Assembly: GCF_033568475.1 (NCBI RefSeq)
Contig: NC_133123.1
Span: 4,650,001 to 4,714,000, forward strand
Length of the DNA stretch: 64,000 nucleotides
Direction: 5' to 3'
Origin: Henckelia pumila
Taxonomy: Eukaryota > Streptophyta > Magnoliopsida > Lamiales > Gesneriaceae
The stretch's first letter is position 1, and each line of letters begins with the position of its first letter. The notes below the pieces were generated by a model. That model worked only from the letters and a program-made list of their open reading frames with translations. It was not told the DNA's origin and made no database searches. A program made the translations under genes and the position numbers. Positions 8,868 to 63,924 of this stretch are shown piece by piece.

Positions 8868-11800
8868 ATGGCTGATGCAGCTGCTCTTATAGAGGCATCA
8901 GGATCCAGATTTTGTGATTTGGAGCTCATTGGAAGAGGTTCTTTCGGGGATGTGTACAAAGGGTAAGATTTTGAATTAATTTTTTTTCATTCTGTTCCTT
9001 TCAAGTTTAATTGCAATGGTTGACACATTCAGCTGGTGTTATCACAACATAATGCATTTATGAGGGTTCTTCGCCTAATTCGAATGCAAAATTCCATTAA
9101 ACGCGTAAATATTTATGAGGTCTATCAATGTGTTAAGATCGTACGAGCTTGGAACATTTAATAACTTGTAACTTTTGCGAGGACCGGAAGAGAGATAGAT
9201 CGGATCATTTAACTGTAGTTGCCAAAATCGCAAGGCACATTAAAGTGCTCAAGTGTCCTAGGGCTTTAAGCGCAAAGTGTAAGCTCCACGGAAGTAAAGT
9301 GCAATAAATAAATATTAAAAAAACTAAAAATAAATTAATACTTTTTAAAAATTATGAAACATAAGATATCAAATATTGAAATCATCATCTTTCAAATATC
9401 AAATATTAAGATGCAAGGGTAAAGGGCTGACGTGTCGCAATGGGCAGAGACGATTGGGGGGAAAAACGACACGATGTTGAGGTTTTTTTGTGTTGTTACG
9501 GTAAACATAAGAGAGATCGCACTTTAAAAGGCAAAATTTCACCTCTATCAGATATATATATATTTTTTTGGAAAAAAAATATGTTTTCCTCCCAAGCACG
9601 CTTTAATGCGAAGCACAATGAAGCTCAAGCAATGCACTTCTTGCGCTTTTGACAACTATGCATTTAACCGCTATTGACTTTAACGAGGACTGGAGGGGAG
9701 TGAAACTTTTGCTCTCTCTCTACTTGCTTGTCAACATGTGTTTCACACATACACGAACACAAGTCCGATGCTACCGATGATTTGATTAAAGTTACGGTGT
9801 CTGGTTGCTTGAACAAGGATAGATTAGAAGTTAAATGAACATTTTGGGAGTTCCAATAATTTCTTTTGACATTGTCGTTATCAGTCAAAACAAGATAACT
9901 AAGTCAAAGAGCGATTGACAGATCTTCTGCTAATGTGCCAATTGTAAAGCGTCCTTTTTTAAAACTGGATATTTATGTTTCAATAATGCTGACTCTTAGG
10001 TTCCAAAAATTATTGGAGTGCAAAATTCATGTGTAACATATCAGGTTATCTGCAAGAAGTTTTTGATGCATTGATTTTATCTTTTTTTGGGATAATAATG
10101 TGATTCTCTCAAGTGCTCTGGTGGCGACAATATTTTGAAATTCTGTAATTAGATTGTCGAATTGGTTATTGTAGTTCACCAACATGTTAGAAACTGAAAG
10201 TGTATCAAGAGAGTAACATGCTATTATTGCCCATGTACTTGGCGTGGTAGTTTTTTGGAAATTTTCTTCATGATGATTTATTTGACGAAAAAATGGTCTG
10301 TAGTTGATTAAACAGAATAAACAGAATAGCATGCTAATTAGTCAAAGCAATTCAGTACGAGGTGTATTTAGTCGAGTGGCTTAATGATCTTTAAGAGTAT
10401 TGTTGTTTTATTGTCTATTGACATACTCGGGTTCAAGCAAGTCATGCTTGGTCTTCAGAGTTCTAATTATTGTCCAACCTATGTACTTTACCATTTGCAT
10501 AGTTGCGTGCACTTCACATTCCAACCCGCAACGTGAATCAATTTTAGTTGAATGTATTGCAATTTTTTCTGAAGACAAAGTCTCTATATTTCTTTATAGA
10601 TTTTCTCTTCTTGTGGTTGTTCTAATGCTAATGGCGGATTATCTGATGTTGACCATTTGAGAATTGCGTGTTTGGAAACTCATGAATAGTATCAAAATGG
10701 TGGGATATTTGGCCAAGTACGAGAAGCTAAGAAGCACATGAGTGATCTGCTGGTTGTTTGTAGAGGTCCATTTACAAGATCCAAGTCTATGAGATTTAAA
10801 GAGTAGCCTAATGGAATGATTTAATAGTTGGAGGACCAAGCAAACAACATAGGCCAATTTAAGGAGTAAGTGTTGAAGTGAACCAACTAAATTTATGTTC
10901 ATGACAAGAAAACTTAATTATAAGCTCGATTCATTTGGAACCCAGCATAATGTTTCTACATTTTGAATAGCTTGAAATTGACTGGAAAATGATTTTCATT
11001 GATCTCAAATTCATCCAACTGGTGAGCAAAACAGGCATTGGATTTCCCTTAATTATTTTGTTCATGGATCATTGTGAGGATCACAACAAATACATATCTT
11101 ATATTAGCGATAGTTTTGACCATAGAATTAGGTAACATGTGTTAAGATGTTGTCAGGAGGCAAGCAGGTTACGGCTCTTGTGCATTTGTCTCATTGCCTC
11201 CTACTGACTTATACTGATGCGAAGGGAAACATGACACAACATATCAATATATCATGTGGGGAGGAGGAAAAACATTAGCTATGAGTTGTGATGAAATCTA
11301 AATTTTAGCCACATTTAGTGTAACCTCTAATTAGAAATCTTGCAAATGTATGATCTACCAATAAAATGAAAAAGTACGTCGTTCTATAAAAGTTTGGAAC
11401 AAGAGAATTTAGGGTGAGCCTTTCTCATTTTTCTGACCTGAAGTGAAATTTTTTGTACGCTTTGAGAAAAGGGGAAATGATAAAAATGGCAAGAATCAAA
11501 GCAAAGAACCTACTCTGTGATGTTCATTCTTTGAATTTTCTTTAAACATGTACCCAGGTCATTGTGATTTGGGCATTCATTTTGATGTAGCAAAGTGAGA
11601 TGACGCTGAGTTAATGGAATTTAAAAAATTTTGCCTTTGCTTCTATCTGTGATAGTAGCTTGGTTTTGTTCTTGAGTTGTTGGATTGTATATTGATTGCT
11701 TTAGTTTTTATTATATAAGAGTAGAAGCTAAGTGGGATATTTAACACATCGTCTTGTTTGGAATCAAACAAAGTGAAGGATAGCAGCAATTATGGAGGCT

Positions 11801-63100: not shown

Positions 63101-63924
63101 TGGGTAATCTTAATATTTGAAACGAGATGCACACTATAAACCATTTCATCACCCTGTATAAATCAATTTATCTAAGATAATATATGGTCAATGGAAGCGA
63201 CATGGTGGTGTTTGTTTCTGTGATTCCATCAACAAACGTGAATGCAAATTTTTTGAAGATATTTTTTTACTCATTGTTAAATTCACAATGTTACATCTAT
63301 TTTATAGTAAAATTTTTTGAAGGCGATTGTATGTCTCAGTTGGGGCTTATGTGTCTTTTCCAGAAAAGAAACACTATATTTTTGTTTTAGTCATCCATCT
63401 GACATGCCATTACTCTTTATGCGCTAGTGGTAATTGGGACTTGAAAACCTCAATCCCCCATCAGTGTGCTGTATCAAACATGACACTCCCACCATATTTT
63501 TTGGAATGGATCAATTTGAAGGACGTCTACCTAAACTTCTACAACAAAAGGGTGAGTACATAAAGTTTTGTCTCCAACTTTGTACTTCAAATTTCAATTC
63601 TTATTTATACATGCTACACATTGCCGAATTCTGCGCCTAATTGTTATGTCTCCTGTTGTTTTGCCACATTCCTTAGGAAAACAGATAATTTCAACAATTA
63701 ATTTGTTTCTTGCATGGATATAGGCACCAGGGATGCTCTCAATGTTGAGGGGACTCCAGATTCCTCCATTAGGAAGTCACCATGTTGGAATCGATGATGC
63801 AAGAAATATAGCACGAGTGTTGCAACACATGCTTACTGATGGTGCTTTTTTGAAAATAACAGCTAGAAGATCCTCAGATGCTCCTGGTAACGTTAAATTC
63901 CTCTTCCAAAATCGTATAAGGTAG
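60199..63924 (+). CDS. ERIL1: ERI1-like 3'-5' exoribonuclease (DEDDh), plastid-targeted
   Basis: Six exons (60199-60438, 60568-60761, 61596-61676, 62947-63072, 63428-63551, 63724-63924) give 321 residues. Exon 1 encodes a Ser/Pro/Arg-rich, acid-poor leader like a chloroplast transit peptide. The exonuclease domain (about 110-300) shows all DEDDh residues: YFLVLDLEGKVEILEFP (Asp117, Glu119), CGNWDLKT (Asp218) and LGSHHVGIDDARNIARV (His275, Asp280). The C terminus is KFLFQNRIR, as in At3g15140. Plant ERI1-like 1 trims 3' ends of chloroplast rRNA and affects plastid ribosome assembly; the animal relative ERI1 trims 5.8S rRNA, histone mRNA and siRNA. The start matches the family. Intron 3 is 1.27 kb and looks free of mobile elements. 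Confidence 0.94.

Follow-up and report, generated by a model that had tools for sequence, protein, structure and literature searches.

Genes that Arabidopsis carries in the separate chromosomal blocks of CUC1 and CUC2 are interleaved in consistent order on one segment of the Henckelia pumila genome, as judged from pairing by eye and locus numbers that are partly assumed. We analyzed this segment starting from a stretch of 64,000 nucleotides (the window; C4:4650001-4714000, where C4 is contig NC_133123.1, 233.5 Mb long, in an assembly of 884.7 Mb and 133 contigs). The window contains a NAM-type NAC gene which is the counterpart of both CUC1 (At3g15170) and At5g53950, the locus that we take to be CUC2. 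In our estimation, it is highly probable (roughly 0.88) that an ancestral segment is still whole here, that it was multiplied in the Arabidopsis line by genome duplication with complementary losses, and that the NAM gene is the common counterpart of CUC1 and CUC2. The multiplication by genome duplication and the subsequent complementary gene loss are the inferred part of this reading; doubling followed by such loss is a well-known general phenomenon.

The gene order was compared for 23 recognised genes at C4:4.40-4.74 Mb, each paired with Arabidopsis loci, using exact p values for tau. The 14 genes with counterparts in the At3g15 block gave a tau of -0.978 (p = 3.2e-10), with a single swap of neighbours (COX17 and SPA), whereas tau was 1 for both the At1g52-53 block (n = 10, p = 5.5e-7) and the At5g53-54 block (n = 9, p = 5.5e-6). 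Within the window alone the result was modest (p = 0.0028 for 6 chromosome 5 genes and 0.083 for 4 chromosome 3 genes), and it became strong once the flanks were included. The flanks taken in amount to 250 kb (C4:4390001-4420000, 4480001-4650000 and 4714001-4764000); the row of recognised genes spans about 340 kb, of which 60 kb (C4:4420001-4480000) lie outside the survey. An earlier note on this DNA had assigned its genes to the chromosome 3 and chromosome 5 blocks, and both assignments are supported, given that the same order continues past the window and that a tobacco segment is reported to match the same two blocks (PMC10329969, Table 3). The note had also proposed that what is one segment here is split between two Arabidopsis blocks. 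The split stands, but because of the order test and the double matches in tobacco and peach, At4g27 included, about four blocks (At3g15, At1g52-53, At5g53-54 and At4g27) are involved rather than two.

We take the intervals 5,025,184-5,196,591 of Arabidopsis chromosome 3 and 21,822,323-21,914,866 of chromosome 5 to hold CUC1 and CUC2. These are the intervals with which a tobacco chromosome 10 gene is reported to lie in syntenic blocks (PMC10329969, Table 3). Like the window, the tobacco segment is a single one matching the blocks of both AtVQ19 (At3g15300) and AtVQ33 (At5g53830); unlike the window, it is reported for VQ genes only, and NAM or CUC genes are not mentioned in the relevant section of that paper (PMC10329969). 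On peach contig ctg2264, the same two expressed sequence tags (ESTs) match both At5g54010 with At5g53940 and At4g27560 with At4g27740, that is, a glycosyltransferase and a yippee locus in each case (PMC1479338). Here too, a single contig with neighbouring yippee and glycosyltransferase genes matches two Arabidopsis blocks, whereas, in the part of the report describing them, the ESTs are anchored to bacterial artificial chromosomes without resolved gene order and without NAM (PMC1479338).

The relationship between the genes themselves has been described from another side. Petunia has a single NAM, and CUC1 and CUC2 have been named as its orthologs, so that, as here, one NAM gene under miR164 control corresponds to both; the statement concerns gene relationship, as opposed to the gene order considered here (PMC4710747). 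A grape sequence has been paired with CUC2, with CUC1 named as the Arabidopsis paralog (PMC4646352), and the orthologs of CUC1, CUC2 and CUC3 have been traced to angiosperm duplications, the divergence of CUC1 from CUC2 being left undated in the relevant text (PMC9880897). Gene relationship and double synteny are already in print, in pieces, and the conserved order found here, clear as it is, is expected, being ordinary conserved synteny. In the open-licence literature, we found no paper stating the CUC1/CUC2 case from gene order, which is weak evidence of absence, and no text naming two or more of a set of six block loci.

The NAM gene occupies positions 29103-30757 of the minus strand, with exons at 30757-30571, 30456-30173 and 29669-29103 in a splice model that encodes 345 amino acids. 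Its NAC domain is complete (Pfam NAM positions 1-122 of 122, E = 3.7e-48), and its best match in the Protein Data Bank (PDB) is NAC92. The last exon (exon 3) contains a miR164 target site (29438-29458, minus strand) encoding EHVPCFS. This site has no mismatches to the search pattern, is the sole match in the window even with up to 3 mismatches allowed, and has no counterpart in any of 100 shuffles; it departs from the full complement of miR164, with the miR164 sequence as we assume it, at 2 of 21 positions. The site and the look of the sequence by eye speak for a predicted grouping with NAM, CUC1 and CUC2 rather than with CUC3. NAM/CUC proteins typically have Arg or Lys where the motif FYLGRAPKG of the present protein (30173-30456, minus strand) has Leu. 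In print, At3g15170 is named CUC1, and At5g53950, At3g15500, At3g15510, At1g52880 and At1g52890 are given as NAC only (PMC3485569).

The arrangement could have arisen as follows. An ancestral eudicot chromosome segment would have stayed in one piece in H. pumila, while in the Arabidopsis line successive whole-genome duplications would have multiplied it into the roughly four blocks. Each block would then have lost different genes, so that only an overlay of the blocks shows the full original set, and the NAM locus would have left CUC1 in the At3g15 block and CUC2 in the At5g53 block. The origin of CUC1 and CUC2 from one NAM-type locus by genome doubling, as the earlier note had suggested, is supported and remains the best reading, with the qualification that CUC1 and CUC2 appear to have separated before the last doubling. 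Among the 23 genes, the At3g15 and At1g52-53 blocks share seven, the At3g15 and At5g53-54 blocks three (VQ, WNK-related and NAM), and the At1g52-53 and At5g53-54 blocks none. These counts, partly from assumed loci, suggest that chromosomes 3 and 1 form the younger, alpha pair, and chromosomes 3 and 5 the older, beta pair. Somewhat more probably than not, CUC1 and CUC2 parted at the beta doubling of Brassicales, and both alpha copies of the gene, one in the At1g53 block and one in the At4g27 block, would have been lost later. If so, two NAM genes are expected in all lines sharing beta, and one NAM gene in the same gene order in papaya and all other eudicots without a duplication of their own.

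A single ancestral segment is also compatible with CUC1 and CUC2 having been parted by the alpha doubling, the At3g15 and At5g53 blocks then being direct alpha partners. This timing, which we regard as unlikely, is favoured by the NAM copy, the VQ gene and the WNK-related gene common to the two blocks (VQ loci printed, WNK-related ones assumed), but what speaks against it is At3g15 sharing 7 of the 23 genes with At1g52-53 and only 3 with At5g53-54. Moreover, chromosome 3-chromosome 1 pairs are in print for MAP4K (MAP4K2 At3g15220, MAP4K1 At1g53165; PMC4511077), SPA (SPA3 At3g15354, SPA4 At1g53090; PMC4091655) and ERF (ERF4 At3g15210, ERF8 At1g53170; PMC6161326), the status of closest paralogs being given, in the relevant passages, for ERF4 and ERF8 only. 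The same peach ESTs, furthermore, match yippee and glycosyltransferase genes of chromosomes 5 and 4 (PMC1479338). Far less probable is that CUC1 is a transposed copy of CUC2 in the At3g15 block, with the remaining order reflecting old synteny. Transposition of single genes is common in Brassicales, but the locus number of CUC1 falls between those of the MAP4K and ERI1-like counterparts, which is the place of NAM in the undivided segment, and both blocks show collinearity with the tobacco segment (PMC10329969). Finally, that large gene families let any segment match some Arabidopsis run by chance is hardly credible: the NAC, VQ, UGT, kinase and TAT families are indeed large, with at least 181 exon-wise NAM-domain matches in the H. 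pumila genome, but low-copy genes (PrmA, ERI1-like, PPI and MAP4K, by their exon queries) are also in order, the order p values reach 3.2e-10, and the tobacco and peach reports agree (PMC10329969, PMC1479338).

Several points weigh against the undivided ancestral segment with its beta-age split. The hypothesis was already in view when the counterparts were picked by eye, which makes the order p values optimistic for large families; about half of the locus numbers are assumed rather than taken from print. The order test excludes the class IV aminotransferase, PPR, RING, MATE and MT-A70-like genes, which are without a block counterpart, as well as eight or more unassigned coding-like stretches and all retrotransposon-like or repeat-like stretches. 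ERF4/ERF8 (At3g15210/At1g53170), by Arabidopsis numbering a neighbour of MAP4K, was not seen beside MAP4K here when the sequence was read by eye. The order of the four At4g27 genes (three loci from print, PPI1 assumed) is imperfect, and the argument for beta over alpha consists of shared-gene counts, which use partly assumed loci. To these are added paralogs of the TAT, SPA and HB52 queries elsewhere in the genome, and pieces of SPA at C3:102.23-102.26 Mb with 66-90% identity (best 88-90%), some with stops; the pieces resemble a fragmented, more recent copy of the SPA-type gene.

Copies within the genome were sought with one-exon queries, eight of which were answered. No close second copy was found for five of the eight (NAM, PrmA, ERI1-like, PPI and MAP4K): NAM exon 3 and one exon each of PrmA, ERI1-like and PPI had a single match, and the MAP4K exon had five other matches with 30-54% identity over 32-67 residues. 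The TAT paralogs are at C1:169.548 Mb (78%) and, twice, on C4 near 6.53 Mb (68 and 61%), besides a distant one (29%); the SPA query matched C1:172.218 Mb (67% over nearly the whole query) and further, more distant places. The top-scoring TAT and SPA paralogs are 2.7 Mb apart on C1, with no NAM exon 3 match there, and C1:169-173 Mb is possibly an older duplicate of the segment. The HB52 query had 37 other homeodomain matches, the nearest at C4:0.803 Mb (57% over residues 9-116). A second block at C4:0.80-0.82 Mb, where an HB52-like gene (C4:802598-803152) and a NAC gene (C4:817157-818978) lie about 15 kb apart, was considered and rejected, the NAC in the part of the region inspected by eye being divergent and SOG1-like rather than NAM. 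We take the corresponding Arabidopsis genes, HB54 (At1g27045) and SOG1 (At1g25580), to be both on chromosome 1.

The segment provides an undivided reference order of the genes around NAM/CUC, with which the losses of each Arabidopsis block can be traced. Position, and not just sequence likeness, places CUC1 and CUC2 as genome-doubling duplicates, and the segment can serve as a frame for the question of when CUC1 gained roles of its own.

The interval 8868-63924 of the window contains eight genes, namely a GCKIII/MAP4K kinase, PrmA-like, yippee, NAM-type NAC, TAT, class IV aminotransferase, HB52-type HD-Zip and ERI1-like genes; the coordinates of the earlier note fit the splice models, in which the kinase ATG is at 8868 and the ERI1-like stop codon ends at 63924. 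All seven genes named in that note are present in the order stated, but the class IV aminotransferase between TAT and HD-Zip was missing from its series, and a further block gene, the putative WNK-related one, already starts upstream. The 5' part of the latter occupies positions 1-1090 of the minus strand (open reading frames by eye), and the gene runs upstream to about C4:4648940. One of its exons matches Pfam bHLH-MYC_N (E = 4.5e-5, below the family cut-off), whereas another exon and the presumed C-terminal exon have no Pfam family; we presume its identity, read by eye, and its counterparts, At3g15240 and At5g53900.

The kinase gene (GCKIII/MST3-type MAP4K, 8868-20962, plus strand, 3' end approximate) corresponds to AtMAP4K1 (At1g53165) and AtMAP4K2 (At3g15220). 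Twelve N-terminal exons were modelled (8868-17411), and a coding stretch at 20798-20962 was put at the 3' end by eye. Its best PDB match is STK24/MST3 (E = 2.5e-115), and STK24, STK25 and MST4 take the best 13 places among the 60 PDB sequences listed, out of 2793 matched; the predicted STE20 kinase domain is accordingly closest to MST3/STK24-26, as is characteristic of the GCKIII type. The PrmA-like gene, for a ribosomal protein L11 methyltransferase (22611-24786, plus strand; Pfam PrmA E = 2.5e-15; splice model with a tentative last junction), presumably corresponds to At5g53920. The yippee-type zinc-binding protein gene (25247-26351, ends approximate, minus strand) is an exon series read by eye, with a Pfam Yippee-Mis18 match (E = 0.0044) that is weak alone and below the family cut-off; its counterparts are At5g53940 and At4g27740 (PMC1479338).

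The tyrosine aminotransferase gene (TAT, 39734-42315, plus strand), with six exons modelled from 39749 and a start codon at 39734 placed by eye, matches Pfam Aminotran_1_2 (E = 1.1e-52) and, in the PDB, best of all a tyrosine aminotransferase (E = 1.1e-82). We assume that At4g28410 is a TAT and the alpha partner of its counterpart, At5g53970. The class IV aminotransferase gene (43566-45029, plus strand, start by eye) matches Pfam Aminotran_4 (E = 1e-36), and its PDB matches are class IV aminotransferases. We know of no counterpart in the Arabidopsis blocks; the protein is presumably D-amino acid aminotransferase-like or aminodeoxychorismate lyase-like and corresponds to At5g57850, elsewhere on chromosome 5. 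The HB52-type HD-Zip gene (49618-50208, plus strand; counterpart At5g53980) was read as one exon (Pfam Homeodomain E = 2.5e-15); a putative leucine zipper was read by eye, and we presume the likeness to HB52, an HD-Zip I protein. Tyr replaces Phe in its recognition helix (IWYQNKRAR, the usual homeodomain form being WFQN), and the same IWYQNKRAR is present in the HB52-like gene at C4:802733-803053. The ERI1-like 3'-5' exonuclease gene (60199-63924, plus strand; counterpart At3g15140) has six exons, of which model exons 3 and 5 were overlong and were trimmed by eye before the searches; it matches Pfam RNase_T (E = 1.2e-6), and ERI1-type nucleases together with cell death nuclease 4, a related enzyme, account for all eight PDB matches at E <= 0.001.

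In the left flank, Pfam identified two NACs (4402 and 4418 kb), PPR (4489 kb), RING (4491 kb), thioredoxin (4502 kb), CTP_transf_3 (4505 kb), COX17 (4548 kb), Branch enzyme (4585 kb), dynamin N-terminal (4599 kb), VQ (4609 kb), plastocyanin-like (4613 kb), MatE (4625 kb) and 3HCDH (4643-4645 kb) genes, and in the right flank an AAA ATPase (4720 kb) and a UGT (4738 kb). We take the CTP_transf_3 gene to be KDSB. Recognition of the SPA-type gene combines reading by eye with a match to WD40 (E = 1e-8) and further WD40 and kinase matches below threshold; the CDK-like, PPI-type and MT-A70-like genes were identified by eye, the last two with no Pfam match. The loci of TRX m4, KDSB, COX17, At1g53050, core-2/I, PPI, DRP5A and At3g15290, as well as the locus At3g15120, are our assumption.

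Gene models were built by joining splice sites with rough weights, as prediction from sequence. Exons were joined in this way because a Pfam reading of 8801-23800 in two plus-strand frames out of three, with stops as X, gave only one kinase exon. Coding-like stretches in the flanks come from a codon score trained on 1600 window codons, which small exons escape. Of 40 chosen proteins from window and flanks scanned with Pfam, 10 matched no family at E <= 0.01. In the 64-kb window, scans for Rfam families and tRNAs gave no matches. Further loci in print are ENODL1 (At5g53870) and ENODL2 (At4g27520; PMC6726743), ATHB-52 (At5g53980; PMC3281058), ERI (At3g15140; PMC4510415) and At5g53970, to which members of a family related to aminotransferases correspond (PMC9811149).

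The NAM-domain matches listed for the genome lie mostly on the four large contigs C1-C4. Near-equal NAM-domain scores were found for seven NAC matches within 350 kb (C2:143.38-143.73 Mb) and four elsewhere (C2:11.92 Mb, C2:176.91 Mb, C68 and C113); ten of these eleven score 83.6 bits and one 82, which looks like recent amplification. A short dispersed repeat is present in the window in three related copies (4635-4847, 49143-49358 and 54609-54696), 83-84% alike and found in both orientations.

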